64,000 nt of DNA, from positions 1-64,000 of the forward strand of contig PALD01000054.1 of assembly GCA_002710685.1 (NCBI GenBank), given 5' to 3'. A model generated the notes under the pieces. It was not told where the DNA came from and ran no database searches. It was given only the letters and a program-made list of their open reading frames with translations. A program made the translations under genes and the position numbers. How positions within the stretch are numbered: position 1 is the first letter of the stretch; every line of letters begins with the position of its first letter. This DNA is from Cytophagaceae bacterium. GTDB taxonomy: Bacteria > Bacteroidota > Bacteroidia > Flavobacteriales > Flavobacteriaceae. This document shows, one piece after another, positions 12,842 to 51,720 of the stretch.

Positions 12842-15619
12842 TTAAAATCTATACCTTACTGAAGCATTCCAGGTCCTTCCTAGACCAAAGAATACCCTGT
12901 TGCCAGTTGAAATACCATCATACGTATCATCACCATCCCTTACAAAATAATTTGTGTCTGATTCTGATATGTAGGTTTCATTAGTAACGTTGTTTACGTT
13001 TAACCTAAATGAAAGGTCGCTAAGAGAAGGCACCTTGAATGAAACACCAGCATCAAGTAATCCAAAAGACGGAAGCTTTAATGCACCATCAGGACCCACA
13101 GAGGTTGCATCATAATCAGCATATAGGTTGTCTGCAAATCGATAAGATGCATCAACGGTCAAGAATTCAATGATGTCATAAGCAGCTCCCAGGCTTGCAG
13201 TAAATTGAGCAGCATCGCCCACTTTGATACCGTCAAGTTCCAGGGTTTCAGTTTGAGCAACACCGTCAATAAGGATGGGTTGGTTACTTTCGTCAAAATA
13301 AGTTGCTGTAGGATTGTCCTTATACTCCCAGTTAGCTACAGATAACATACCGTTGATCCTTAAGTTGTGCATAAGGTCAGCAACAAAATCAACCTCAACA
13401 CCCATGTGTACTTGCGTGATGCCGTTGACATTTGCACTACCACGTATTTCATCATCAGTATCTTCATTAAATACCGCTGAAACCGTTTCAAACCTGTCTG
13501 CCCAGCTGGTACGGTACAGGTTTACGTTTCCACGGAAGTTAGGGCTACGGAAACCATAACCAACTTCAAGCCCCACGATTTTCTCATTTTGAAGGTCCTT
13601 GTTTACATCATTGCTTACAAAACTGGGGAATACAGCATCAAACAATGGTTGCTTGGAGTAGTAGCCACCGTTCACAAAAACGTTGTGCATCTCGTCAATA
13701 TTCCAGTTTACACCTCCTTTGATGTTACCGCCTATAATGTTCTCAACATCAGATTCTTGCTCTGGGTCAGAGTCAAGATAGTTGAAATAGTCGATACGCT
13801 GAAAACTTTGATTAGAGATAGATCCTTGAACAAATGCTGAAATAACATCATTGTTATATTCTAATTGTCCAAAGGCACCTTGCCATCCTACTTTACCATC
13901 ATTGTAATAGTCGATTTTTTCTTCATCATCGATGCTCTTGAAGACATTGACTGTGTTAAGGATGGTAGGCTTATAGGTTTCAGTCAAGAAACGGTAAGGA
14001 TCATTGATGTTGTCGCTGTCTACATAAGCATCTGCACCTAGAAGGTTGACCAACCTGCGGTAGTGGTAACCTGTATATTTTCTAAAATCAAGACCAGCGT
14101 TCAAGGTCAAGAATTCACTCAATTGTGTTTCATAGTTTGTGATAAGCCCAAACCAGTTGTGTGAGTTGACAGATGACCTTTGTGAAATACCGTTTTGTGC
14201 TCCATACACAAAACCTGCATCACTCGCATAAGCAGAAGGTGAATTGTTACCGTTCACAAATTGACCTTGATATTCATCGCCTCCACCGGTGTAACCAGCG
14301 CGGGTTGTGCCATCTATTGCTAGTTGACCAGAGTTATAAGCTATGATATCGTCAATAGGTACAAGTCCATTATCTACCTTAGGTAGTGAATATGACTGGT
14401 CTCCATTAACACGGCCAATACCCCCTATAGAACCCCCACGGCCAAATGAAGCATATGCTGAGGTTGACAATTTAGATGTAGAATTTATTTTCCAGTCCCA
14501 GTTAAGCGATGCGATGGGTTTGTGGTAGAAGTTACCCCCAAAGGTGAACTGCTCACCATTTCTTGATCCCCAGTCGCTGTTGTACCTGATGTCAGGATCA
14601 GTACCATTACCATATTGTATGTAATCGCCTATTGATGGGGCAAAGCTGCGCTGGTTGTGCTGTTGTGGAGCACCTGTGATCATGAAGTTGAAATCATGAG
14701 AAGCACTTGCCTTGTAACCTACGCCTATGTAATAGTTATATCCCTCAAAGTTAGTTCCGTCAACATATCCATCACCAGCCGTACGGCTAAATAAATATGA
14801 ACTTGACCATCCTTTTTCATTGATGCCCGTGTTATAAGAAACAACGGTTTTATTATAACCATCATTACCGGCAGAAGCACTTACAAATCCACCTTCTGCC
14901 CTGTCAGCAGATCTTGTCACAACGTTTATTGTACCACCCACAGAAGATACCGTGAGTTTTGAAGAACCTAGACCCCTTTGTACCTGTATGGCTGATGCCA
15001 CATCAGAAAGGCCAGCCCAGTTACTCCAGTAAACGGCACCATTCTCCATGTCATTTACAGGGATACCGTTAATCATGACAGCACTGTTCCTAGTACTAAA
15101 TCCACGGATGTTGATACGTGAGTCACCATATCCACCACCTTGCTTTGTAGCATAGATCGATGGTGTGTTGTTCAGGATTTCTGGAAATTCCTGTGACCCT
15201 AGCTTTTCTTGTATTTCCGCGGCGCGTATTGTGGATACGGCAACAGGGGTTTCCCTGTCCTTAGCGATATCTACAACCCCGGTTACAACTACCTCATCAA
15301 GGGAGTTTGCATCAACCTCAAGTACAAGGTCTCCCAGGTCTTGAGTACCTCCCCCGGTAACATTAAATGGAACGCTCAATGTCTTGAACCCCACATAAGA
15401 GATTCTAAGGGTTCCGGTTGACTGGGTAACTTCAAGATTAAAATTACCATCAAAGTCAGTACTGGCACCAGCATTTGTGCCTTGTACCATAACGTTTACA
15501 CCTGGAAGGGGCGCATTCATGTCACCATCCAGTACAGTACCTGTCAAGGTTCCCTGTCCATAGCTTACTGCCGTAAGGACAAAAAACGCTGCAACCAGTA
15601 GTTTTGAAACATTTTTCAT
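12842..15619 (-). CDS. TonB-dependent outer-membrane receptor
   Basis: A 925-residue outer-membrane transporter. ATG 15619 gives a clean signal peptide (MKNVSKLLVAAFFVLTAVSYGQ). Residues about 23-110 form a carboxypeptidase-regulatory-like domain (GTVLDGDMNAPLPGVNV...), followed by a plug domain (residues 120-240; INIRGFSTRNSAVMINGIPV, VQRGLG, GGTINVVT) and a 22-strand-type barrel ending in YRF. There is no SusD partner, so it is not a classical polysaccharide-utilisation pair. The ligand cannot be read from the sequence. It is transcribed alone and ends at its own terminator. Confidence 0.93.
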   Translation of the reverse strand: MKNVSKLLVAAFFVLTAVSYGQGTLTGTVLDGDMNAPLPGVNVMVQGTNAGASTDFDGNFNLEVTQSTGTLRISYVGFKTLSVPFNVTGGGTQDLGDLVLEVDANSLDEVVVTGVVDIAKDRETPVAVSTIRAAEIQEKLGSQEFPEILNNTPSIYATKQGGGYGDSRINIRGFSTRNSAVMINGIPVNDMENGAVYWSNWAGLSDVASAIQVQRGLGSSKLTVSSVGGTINVVTRSADRAEGGFVSASAGNDGYNKTVVSYNTGINEKGWSSSYLFSRTAGDGYVDGTNFEGYNYYIGVGYKASASHDFNFMITGAPQQHNQRSFAPSIGDYIQYGNGTDPDIRYNSDWGSRNGEQFTFGGNFYHKPIASLNWDWKINSTSKLSTSAYASFGRGGSIGGIGRVNGDQSYSLPKVDNGLVPIDDIIAYNSGQLAIDGTTRAGYTGGGDEYQGQFVNGNNSPSAYASDAGFVYGAQNGISQRSSVNSHNWFGLITNYETQLSEFLTLNAGLDFRKYTGYHYRRLVNLLGADAYVDSDNINDPYRFLTETYKPTILNTVNVFKSIDDEEKIDYYNDGKVGWQGAFGQLEYNNDVISAFVQGSISNQSFQRIDYFNYLDSDPEQESDVENIIGGNIKGGVNWNIDEMHNVFVNGGYYSKQPLFDAVFPSFVSNDVNKDLQNEKIVGLEVGYGFRSPNFRGNVNLYRTSWADRFETVSAVFNEDTDDEIRGSANVNGITQVHMGVEVDFVADLMHNLRINGMLSVANWEYKDNPTATYFDESNQPILIDGVAQTETLELDGIKVGDAAQFTASLGAAYDIIEFLTVDASYRFADNLYADYDATSVGPDGALKLPSFGLLDAGVSFKVPSLSDLSFRLNVNNVTNETYISESDTNYFVRDGDDTYDGISTGNRVFFGLGRTWNASVRYRF

Positions 15620-15794
15620 TAGTGAGTATTTAGAATTAGATTTTGCGGCAAAAGTCAGTATATCTGCCAAATTAAATATTAAGACAATGTTAAGAATAAT
15701 ATATAAAAAGCCCTAGCCCAATAGAGAATCGGGTGCTCACTAAAACGTTGTCGTTCAGAAATTTAACATTGTTGCTTTTTGCAACGATGCGGTT

Positions 15795-48844: not shown

Positions 48845-49204
48845 TTACTCGTTGCTTACAACCTGCTCCGTTACCTGCCATGTGTTTACATTGGTGATCT
48901 CAGAATCGGCATAATCTACTTCTTTAAGCGTACCGTCAGTCCAGAAGAACCATTTACCTTCCTTCTTTCCATCATTGTATTGAGCAACGGCCACTTTATT
49001 GCCGTTCTTGTCAAAACTCTTCCAGGTACCTTGTAGGTTTCCGGCTTTGTTGTAATAGCCCGTTTGACTTACTTCTCCATTATCATGATAATAGGTAGCT
49101 TTAATGAGCTTACCATCTTTTTCAAAGGTCCCTTTGGGTTTTTCCTGTGCATTTGCAAAGAGAATTCCACCTAGTAGAGCGCAAATAAATAATAGCTTTT
49201 TCAT
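48845..49204 (-). CDS. Secreted MORN-like repeat protein
   Basis: A 119-residue exported protein: signal peptide MKKLLFICALLGGILFANAQ, then short repeats GKLIKATYYHDNGEVSQTGYYNKAGNLQGTWKSFDKNGNKVAVAQYNDGKKEGKWFFW in MORN-variant style. Similar small Flavobacteriia proteins are often misnamed nicotinic acid mononucleotide adenylyltransferase or YwqK antitoxin; no catalytic motif supports either. Divergent from the phosphate transporter, and sharing its 275-base regulatory gap. Confidence 0.75.
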   Translation of the reverse strand: MKKLLFICALLGGILFANAQEKPKGTFEKDGKLIKATYYHDNGEVSQTGYYNKAGNLQGTWKSFDKNGNKVAVAQYNDGKKEGKWFFWTDGTLKEVDYADSEITNVNTWQVTEQVVSNE

Positions 49205-49264: not shown

Positions 49265-49297
49265 TAACATTTAGATAACATTAAATTAACATTAAAA
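49265..49297 (+). promoter_or_regulatory. Three 11-bp direct repeats, candidate PhoB/PhoP box
   Basis: TAACATT starts at 49265, 49276 and 49287, each exactly 11 bases apart (GTAACATTTAG, ATAACATTAAA, TTAACATTAAA). 11-bp-phased direct repeats are the hallmark of binding sites for PhoB/PhoP-type response regulators, and TTAACA units resemble the Bacillus PhoP box. The site lies between the MORN-like gene and the phosphate transporter, about 190 bases before the latter's start. Confidence 0.5.
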
Positions 49298-49479
49298 CTG
49301 TATTTACTTGAATATAAACACTTTAATCAAATAATTATTTTTAAAGTAATCTCCCATCCATTACTGAGATAGGGTTTGTTTGCTTATTTTTAAGACTTGA
49401 GCAGGGTTACAGATAACCTTTGCATAACATTCATGCAGAAAATATATCTCAAATTTGCTCCCTAAATGAGTTACCTTTA

Positions 49480-51720
49480 ATGGACAATATTTATCTTGTT
49501 ATGCTAATCGCCCTGGCCATCCTGGCCATTGCCGATCTAGTTGTGGGAGTTAGTAACGATGCCGTGAATTTTCTCAATTCGGCCATCGGTTCAAAAGCAG
49601 TTTCTTTTAAGACAATCATCATTGTTGCCAGTGTGGGTATCGTTTTTGGCGCGCTATCTTCCAGTGGTATGATGGAGGTTGCCCGAAAAGGTATTTTTGT
49701 GCCCGGGCAATTCTATTTTGACGAGATCATGATCATCTTCATGGCGGTCATGCTTACTGATATATTGTTGCTTGATTTTTTCAACACGCTGGGGATGCCC
49801 ACTTCAACAACGGTATCCATCGTGTTTGAGCTATTGGGAGCGGCTTGTTGCATGACGTTCATAAAACTGGCTGACAGCGATGATACACTGCTGCAGCTGG
49901 GCAATTACATAAATTCTGATAAGGCCCTGGAGATTATACTGGGTATCCTCCTTTCAGTTGTCATAGCGTTTACCGTGGGTGCCCTCGTGCAGTTTCTGTC
50001 CCGTCTTTTTCTCACGTTTCATTATGAGAAAAAAGCTAAATGGGTAGCTGCATTGTTTGGTGGGGTTGCCATTGCTGCCATTACTTACTTTATCATTATC
50101 AAGGGACTCAAGAGTGCCACTTTTGTAGAAGGCGCATTCCTGGACTGGGCTAACAATAATGTATGGCAATTCATCGGGTTGAGCTTTGTGGTGTGGAGTA
50201 TTGTTTCATATGCGCTTGAAGCTTTTTTTAAAATAAATATCTATATCATTGTCATCGTGCTGGGCACCTTTGCACTGGCCATGGCCTTTGCTGGTAATGA
50301 TTTGGTGAACTTTATAGGGGTTCCCATGGCGGCATATAATTCTTACACTATCTGGGAGGCCAGTGGTGAGCTCGCATCACAATTTACCATGGAATCCCTT
50401 GCAGAAAAAGTACCTACCCAACCCATGTTATTGCTGCTGGCGGGTGGAGTGATGATCCTGACCCTCTGGTTCTCAAAAAAGGCACGTAGGGTGGTAAAGA
50501 CTTCTGTGGACCTATCAAGACAGGATGAGGGCGCAGAAAGGTTCAAGCCCAACACGGTTTCCAGGTTGCTGGTAAGGGGAGCTATCCAGCTCAATTATGC
50601 GGTAATGAAAATACTACCCAAGTCTACCCAAAAATACATGGATAGCCGTTTTGTAAAAAGAACACATACACGTGTAGCCGCCATTGATCTCCCGGCATTT
50701 GACCTGGTTAGGGCGGCCGTGAACCTTATGATTGCCAGTGTACTTATATCAGTGGCTACCTCAATGAAACTACCGCTTTCTACAACTTACGTGACCTTTA
50801 TGGTCGCGATGGGTACATCACTGGCAGATAGGGCCTGGGGTAGCGAGAGCGCCGTTTATAGGGTTGCCGGGGTACTCAACGTGATAGGTGGATGGTTCCT
50901 CACGGCTATCTGTGCTTTTACCGCAGCAGCCTTGATGGCATTTATACTTTATGAAGGAGGCACGCTTGCCCTGTTCCTGCTTTTTGCAGCAGCCATAGGT
51001 ATATTGGTAAGAAACTATGTGAATCATGCTAAACGCTCAAAGGCCGAAGCTGAAGAGGGAAGACTGCTCAGGGCGGTGAGCAATTCAATACAGGGAATAA
51101 TCAATGAGAGTACCATAAATGTGGCCAACTCCTTTAAAAGGGGCAGAAAAGTCTATACCGGTACTATTGAAGGCCTGGCAAAAGTTGACCTGTCCCGCTT
51201 ACGCAAAAGCAAAAAGGGAATCACAAAGCTCAACGCAGAAGTTGAAGAACTGCGCAATAGCCTGTATTATTTTATCAAGAACCTCGATGAGACACACGTT
51301 CAGGCCAGCCGTTTTTATATTGATGTGCTGGGGTACCTTCAAGACGTCACGCAGAGCATCGACTTTATCACCACATCAAGCTTTAATCACCTCAACAATA
51401 ATCACAAGGGGCTCAAGTTTACCCAGCTCAAGGATCTTAAGGAACTTGAGCATAAGCTCAGCAAGCTTTTTGACAAGATTGAAGAAACCTTCAAGAACAA
51501 GGAATTTGATGGCATAGTCGCCATTGTTGAAGAAAAGCAGGACCTGTTGGACAGTATTTCGTCAAAAATAGAAAAGCAGGTGGAGCGCACCCGTAATACT
51601 GACTCAAGTCCTAAAAACACCATGTTGTACTTTAGTCTCCTTCAGGAGACCGAAGACCTTGTAAAGGCCACGATGAGCTTACTTGAGCATTATTATGTGG
51701 AGCATAAAAAACATCTTTAG
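49480..51720 (+). CDS. PiT-family inorganic phosphate transporter with C-terminal PhoU-like region
   Basis: A 746-residue protein starting at ATG 49480 (MDNIYLVMLIAL); the ORF start at 49420 is less likely. Residues 1-545 form the PiT transporter: two inverted halves with SNDAVNFLNSAIGSKA and SMKLPLSTTYVTFMVAMGTSLADRAWG, and TLGMPTSTTVSIVFELLGAA. Residues 560-746 are soluble and helical (QGIINESTINVANSF, TEDLVKATMSLLEHYYVEHKK), resembling a PhoU-type four-helix domain. It likely moves phosphate with H+ or Na+, with the C-terminus as a regulator. See the phased repeats upstream. Confidence 0.88.
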   Translation: MDNIYLVMLIALAILAIADLVVGVSNDAVNFLNSAIGSKAVSFKTIIIVASVGIVFGALSSSGMMEVARKGIFVPGQFYFDEIMIIFMAVMLTDILLLDFFNTLGMPTSTTVSIVFELLGAACCMTFIKLADSDDTLLQLGNYINSDKALEIILGILLSVVIAFTVGALVQFLSRLFLTFHYEKKAKWVAALFGGVAIAAITYFIIIKGLKSATFVEGAFLDWANNNVWQFIGLSFVVWSIVSYALEAFFKINIYIIVIVLGTFALAMAFAGNDLVNFIGVPMAAYNSYTIWEASGELASQFTMESLAEKVPTQPMLLLLAGGVMILTLWFSKKARRVVKTSVDLSRQDEGAERFKPNTVSRLLVRGAIQLNYAVMKILPKSTQKYMDSRFVKRTHTRVAAIDLPAFDLVRAAVNLMIASVLISVATSMKLPLSTTYVTFMVAMGTSLADRAWGSESAVYRVAGVLNVIGGWFLTAICAFTAAALMAFILYEGGTLALFLLFAAAIGILVRNYVNHAKRSKAEAEEGRLLRAVSNSIQGIINESTINVANSFKRGRKVYTGTIEGLAKVDLSRLRKSKKGITKLNAEVEELRNSLYYFIKNLDETHVQASRFYIDVLGYLQDVTQSIDFITTSSFNHLNNNHKGLKFTQLKDLKELEHKLSKLFDKIEETFKNKEFDGIVAIVEEKQDLLDSISSKIEKQVERTRNTDSSPKNTMLYFSLLQETEDLVKATMSLLEHYYVEHKKHL

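Follow-up and report, generated by a model that had tools for sequence, protein, structure and literature searches.

The window analysed here, a stretch of 64,000 nucleotides from a member of the Flavobacteriaceae, contains a 275-bp gap of 26% GC between a gene for a MORN-like protein on the minus strand and a gene for a PHO4/Pit-family phosphate transporter on the plus strand. We find two predicted operators in this gap, each with a -7 box of its own:

48845..49204, minus strand: MORN-like protein P0001, 119 aa, with a signal peptide judged by eye; Pfam MORN_2, 28.2 bits
49237..49244, minus strand: -7 box TATATTTG of the MORN-like gene, a full match to TAnnTTTG
49265..49293, minus strand: box A, three 11-bp-phased units, predicted operator of the divergent MORN-like gene, based on shuffles and on conservation at 30 MORN loci
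49414..49431, plus strand: box B, TAACCTT-TGCA-TAACATT, predicted operator of the transporter gene; scored 33.4 by a matrix trained without the window
49450..49457, plus strand: -7 box CAAATTTG of the transporter gene, its TTTG exactly 40 nt after the first unit of box B
49480..51720, plus strand: PHO4/Pit-family phosphate transporter P0002, 746 aa; Pfam PF01384, 103 bits

The MORN_2 score of P0001 lies just below the cut-off of 29.6 bits, which a Flavobacterium relative passes with 33.6 bits. TAnnTTTG is the consensus of the flavobacterial -7 box (PMC9723704). Box B, a second phased pair near the transporter start, is absent from the original prediction for this locus.

That prediction had described three TAACATT units exactly 11 bases apart, and in this it was exact. 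On the plus strand the units start at 49265, 49276 and 49287, in steps of exactly 11 bp, and they read AATGTTA toward the MORN-like gene. Box A scores 21/21; in 2000 dinucleotide-shuffled versions of the gap the score never exceeds 18/21, and in the gap itself other spacings from 7 to 16 bp give a best score of at most 15. The exact triple occurs a single time in the window; at up to three mismatches it is seen twice, against a mean of 0.01 in shuffled windows, the second match coming from the same array read in an overlapping register. Because the single word TAACATT is not enriched (14 seen, 15.4 expected), the signal lies in the phasing. In the 4.99-Mb genome to which the window belongs, the exact pair TAACATT-N4-TAACATT is found in the box A array only (reversed control 0), although the assembly is flagged with 8.79% contamination and single-copy claims there therefore need care. 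A variant array, TTACATT-TAACATT-TTACATT at 11-bp steps, lies elsewhere in this genome (L004, C70:278508-278536), upstream of a 91-aa ORF without a Pfam match, and is identical to the box A variant of the sister species G144.

The three units had been proposed as a site of the transporter, a reading that we reject in favor of the MORN-like gene. At 30 pit loci, where the criterion was a pair scoring at least 12 located 150-330 bp before pit, box A is present at 19/19 loci with a divergent MORN gene and at 0/11 without one (Fisher p 1.8e-8), and it stays with the MORN gene elsewhere. A search with the MORN protein gave a match in 129 of 149 genomes of the family, and at the 30 best loci, the window's own included, 11-bp-phased units lie upstream of the MORN gene in all 30, whatever the neighbour. 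Going by coordinates, 13 of these loci have the gene divergent from pit, 8 from oprP and 9 from neither, one of the last adjoining an oprP remnant. At a spacing of 11 the MORN promoters hold pairs of at least 12/14 in 30/30 and of at least 13/14 in 29/30, whereas the other spacings from 7 to 16 give at least 13/14 in 0-1 and at least 12/14 in 1-8 of the 30; pairs of at least 13/14 at spacing 11 number 0.05 per shuffled set for the MORN promoters and 0.00 for those of pit. The TTTG of the -7 box lies 50-54 nt from the first unit in 27/30, and the remaining three comprise one that fits after a shift by one unit (64) and two that have ATTTA in the TTTG position. As units and TTTG spacing recur at MORN loci whatever the neighbour, we conclude that box A is a conserved, predicted operator that belongs to the MORN-like gene rather than to the transporter. 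When 14 MORN-pit gaps are aligned, the two boxes and their respective -7 boxes stand out as conserved, and little else does. At one locus (L038) the MORN gene is convergent to pit, yet the units AATGTAA, AATGTAA and AAAGTTA (by eye) are found upstream of it, and the MORN gene promoter also carries a two-unit site in two of three Flavobacterium genomes. At L146, an oprP-type promoter box and leader are kept beside the MORN gene while oprP itself is reduced to a signal-peptide remnant; this locus was left out of the oprP gene counts below.

The transporter has box B. Pit relatives are found in 146 of the 149 genomes of the family, and the window's own genome gave one Pit relative, none for OprP and no PstS over the cut-off. 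We compared 40 pit promoters, made up of the 30 fetched loci of the pit search (the window included) and the 10 next-ranked matches. In 36 of them TTTG follows exactly 40 nt after the first unit, and the pair scores at least 12/14 in 29 and at least 10 in 38. Among the 34 promoters with a start located by script, pairs of at least 13/14 occur at spacing 11 in 18 and at other spacings from 7 to 16 in 0-1, while at the laxer threshold of 12/14 other spacings reach up to 9/34.

A 50-nt matrix was trained on 34 pit promoters, the window and the sister species excluded, and its information lies mostly in the TAAC columns of both units with little in the spacers. Within the window it marks only pit, box A (11.9) and the promoter of a TonB-dependent receptor, the next value being -2.2, and the largest score in four shuffled 16-kb stretches was 5.8. 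The receptor gene and its site are as follows:

15675..15692, minus strand: third box, TAACATT-GTCT-TAATATT; matrix score 19.9, TTTG 40 nt after the first unit
12845..15619, minus strand: TonB-dependent receptor with CarbopepD_reg_2 and Plug domains, syntenic with a Flavobacterium receptor

The first unit of the third box lies 73 bp before the receptor gene, and its score is reached by none of 1000 shuffles. The receptor is 43 and 49% identical to its Flavobacterium relative, and in the shared gene order a pgi-like gene lies upstream and a similar small gene follows; this pgi-linked receptor has a two-unit box in 3/3 Flavobacterium genomes, with TTTG at 39 and matrix scores of 6.9, 7.5 and 8.3. 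The same three genomes hold a DUF47 gene followed by a Pit-like gene (by eye), the promoter of which has a two-unit site in 3/3 but a matrix score above 8 in only 1/3.

Over 1.48 Mb of fetched loci the matrix gave 106 matches above 8, overlapping loci being counted repeatedly. Those outside pit are mainly oprP promoters, which score above 8 in 15 of 19 distinct cases, two of these before oprP-pst (the other four score 8.0, 7.9, 6.8 and -2.4). There is a handful of others, among them one at a lipoprotein gene in L301, one at a PF00149 phosphoesterase gene in L335 and one at tsf in the window's own genome, the last showing the exact 40-nt grid with a score of 19.8, 97 bp before a gene identified by eye as that of elongation factor Ts (L246, C26:87715-87732). 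The strict pattern WAACANTNNNNTAACANT was rejected as a stand-alone search: in the three Flavobacterium genomes and the window's own it gave 29 matches against 24 for the reversed control, and therefore only conserved or promoter-anchored sites count. These sites, their spacing and conservation, the genes behind them and their promoter geometry are direct observations.

Upstream of oprP we also observed an element of about 65 nt, consisting of (TAT)TAGTTTTTGTC(G), a GC hairpin and a U-run, before 10 of 11 oprP genes (L140, L141, L142, L148, L150, L151, L155, L158, L346, L350). Its complementarity to the oprP 5' leader extends over 11-15 nt, longer than the best of 200 shuffles in 9/10 (L158 equal), and the oprP gene of L351 has neither the element nor a complementary leader. 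A matrix match precedes the element in L140, L148, L150 and L155. Rfam returned nothing at gathering scores on five oprP-bearing loci and on the window's own locus; these four and L042 are among the loci without a match. Judged from its sequence, the element resembles a small RNA that would be regulated by phosphate and pair with oprP.

An array of such units is also found next to phoB. Ten Flavobacterium genomes were reached via ribosomal protein L9 of PDB 7jil; the matches include Flavobacterium at up to 98% identity, and F. johnsoniae is not among the 80 loci kept. The phoB region was taken from nine of the genomes, and both phoB and the start of the receptor gene were found in 9/9. The two clusters listed have the order lipoprotein, TonB receptor, divergent phoB, phoR, oprP, glycosyltransferase, phoR adjoining phoB in both, and the regulator beside the array matches PhoB models best (TIGR02154, 215.6 bits, below the cut-off of 296). 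The receptor/lipoprotein promoter divergent from phoB carries an 11-bp TAACA array in all nine genomes, which are close relatives, and in every one of them just 0-2 shuffles out of 300 attain its best matrix score. This score exceeds 8 in 5/9, but in the register aligned to the -7 box it does so in only 2/9 (L303, L305), the best-scoring register lying 33 nt upstream of the aligned one. A manual count places the unit starts 40 and 29 nt ahead of TTTG at pit, 29 and 18 at oprP, and 40, 29 and 18 at the phoB-linked receptor, and all fall on one grid.

The Pfam types of the cluster in L300 agree with those of Fjoh_0541-0546 where the two can be compared, the lipoprotein being without a match here as in the table of PMC8115612. 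Fjoh_0545 and Fjoh_0546, the F. johnsoniae counterparts of the array-bearing receptor and lipoprotein genes, show fold changes of 8.0 and 9.9 on phosphate depletion in a transcriptome study (PMC8115612 Table 1). In the same study Fjoh_0542, the OprP gene, shows no induction (-1.3, not significant), and the phoB and glycosyltransferase genes are both induced (PMC8115612); we found no site in the phoB and glycosyltransferase promoters of the Flavobacterium cluster. Several TAACATT units, part of them 11 bp apart, lie in the phoR-oprP gap of the Flavobacterium loci L270-L279 and L282, despite the uninduced OprP of F. johnsoniae.

The repeats had been predicted to define a Pho box for the group, and this part of the prediction finds support at uptake genes, with the operator present at pit, DUF47-pit, oprP and oprP-pst, but not at most of the organophosphate genes. 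The operator is found before none of 25 PhoX-family genes (of 30 loci, five start at the gene itself and were left out), at none of 20 phytase operons and at none of the PI-PLC genes in 10 clusters. A check of pstS had been proposed with the prediction. A search via PF12849 returned 30 loci, of which 12 were PstS-like and 18, LysR-like by their N-termini, were dropped; a strict box is found in only 3 of the 12 stretches, two of these before an oprP gene that precedes pstS, and in some stretches oprP precedes pstS with its promoter outside the stretch. In 2 of the 10 PI-PLC clusters, which come from other genera, a site lies 72-104 bp ahead of a PF00149 phosphoesterase gene next to PI-PLC, reversed and at 13/14 in L333 and with a matrix score of 8.6 in L335; Fjoh_4172, a gene of the PF00149 type in a PI-PLC cluster, has a fold change of 6.4 on phosphate depletion (PMC8115612). 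Among these loci the operator is not general to phosphate genes. The PhoX, phytase and PI-PLC genes may be controlled indirectly; the phosphate-depletion clusters of F. johnsoniae include sigma factors and FecR-like regulators (PMC8115612). The phytase-TonB receptor operons share another promoter motif, TGTTGC ... TTTGTT (by eye), often behind a gene of ~470-540 aa (L313-L316, L318, L320, L321, L323, L325, L326, L328), and this sequence suggests a local regulator of these operons.

The outcomes named with the original prediction as speaking against it, absence of the motif from other phosphate genes and lack of conservation at the locus, are not what we found, because the operator is conserved both at the locus and at other phosphate-uptake genes. 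Its anatomy, a head-to-tail series of at least two 11-nt units in which 7 positions are conserved and 4 less so, and its place just upstream of the promoters of pit, oprP and DUF47-pit, agree with the view that the phasing fits an operator of the PhoB/PhoP type. The proposed tie between the MORN-like gene and phosphate-uptake genes also finds support in the same kind of site at both, and we regard a predicted Pho-type operator that connects this gene to phosphate uptake as well supported by anatomy, conservation and gene set. It is probably read by a response regulator of the OmpR/PhoB family, most likely PhoB, although sequence alone cannot name the regulator.

We infer the identity of the regulator, the phosphate signal and the sign of regulation, namely activation by PhoB under phosphate shortage. 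In the mechanism that we propose, the operator would consist of 7-nt TAACATT units in head-to-tail order with an 11-bp period, at a constant distance from TAnnTTTG, with two units and TTTG 40 nt after the first at the transporter, and three or four reversed units and TTTG at about 53 nt at the MORN gene. Phosphate shortage would lead to phosphorylation of the regulator, which would then bind as tandem dimers on one helix face over the -33 region and recruit RNA polymerase, and Pit, OprP(-Pst), the TonB-dependent receptor and the MORN-like envelope protein would be raised together. The sign of regulation is least certain at the MORN gene, because the sites there are reversed.

Repeats of TGTTA or TTAACA at 11 bp are also read by other OmpR-family regulators, and the operator could belong to one of these, for instance a PhoP like that of Riemerella, a genus of the same order, which would answer to a non-phosphate signal (envelope or redox) and co-control Pi import. 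We consider this unlikely. The most conserved part of the Riemerella PhoP motif, TTTAACA, resembles that of E. coli ArcA (PMC9603813), deletion of the two-component pair of this PhoP raised pstS 8-fold (PMC5399024), and the boxes are found at pit and mostly not at organophosphate genes. However, Riemerella PhoP has 583 peaks (PMC9603813), whereas the scanned sequence here holds few stand-out sites, mostly at phosphate-uptake genes, and in Flavobacterium the array also lies beside phoB.

The rise of pstS upon loss of the Riemerella pair (PMC5399024) would also fit repression, in which the bound regulator over the -33 region shuts pit and the MORN gene; the units do overlap this region by position, and those of the MORN gene are reversed. 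At oprP and at the phoB-linked TonB receptor, however, units on the same grid end close to the -7 box, and the F. johnsoniae counterpart of that receptor is strongly induced by phosphate depletion (PMC8115612), and we hold repression to be rather improbable, though still worth keeping in mind. A third reading takes the repeats for chance or for a local AT-rich tandem duplication without function, given that A and T make up 74% of the gap and that the units amount to a short tandem array. This is so improbable that we set it aside, since position, phasing and -7 box distance are conserved across many genera but the surrounding gap is not; a chance or low-complexity origin is rejected by the spacing, shuffle and conservation tests alike.

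We thus favor activation through a PhoB-type operator, and more tentatively we consider it possible that the Flavobacteriaceae have a small, hard-wired phosphate core marked by this operator. Such a core might comprise Pit, OprP(-Pst), one TonB-dependent receptor and the secreted MORN protein as an unrecognised part of uptake, might be largely separate from organophosphate scavenging, and might in many genera include a small RNA pairing with the oprP leader. If the operator is what we propose, a phosphate operator would be known for a major group of environmental bacteria, and its exact grid (two units, 40 nt, TTTG) would allow candidate direct phosphate targets to be listed in related genomes. 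It would also place a widespread secreted MORN-repeat protein, whose role is unknown, and an orphan TonB receptor in a physiological setting.

In B. subtilis, PhoP recognizes TTAACA repeats, and the ArcA box of E. coli and the WalR box of Firmicutes are 11-bp repeats of TGTTA-like units, at other genes and in response to other signals. In the parts of the searched literature that were accessible, no Pho box is described for this group, and the nearest relative of the operator is the Riemerella PhoP motif. The PhoP of Riemerella anatipestifer, characterized by DAP-seq, is an OmpR-family regulator whose motif has the core TTTAACA; it is linked to aerotolerance and virulence, and the accessible part of its description gives neither an 11-bp spacing nor a -7 box geometry nor a site at pit, oprP or MORN (PMC9603813). 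Compared by their core words, the two share TAACA, and the preceding base varies between the units here. The Pho box of E. coli PhoB and B. subtilis PhoP, described as a tandem of 11-nt units, each with 7 positions conserved and 4 less so, is alike in its head-to-tail arrangement by the promoters of phosphate-uptake genes, and differs in its unit, CTGTCAT or GTTCACC, where we find TAACATT (PMC4415409). Unlike the Pho box, the present operator is anchored to TAnnTTTG, is absent from most phosphatase genes tested and is reversed at the MORN gene. We regard it as a Pho-type operator with a clade-specific consensus and promoter grid.
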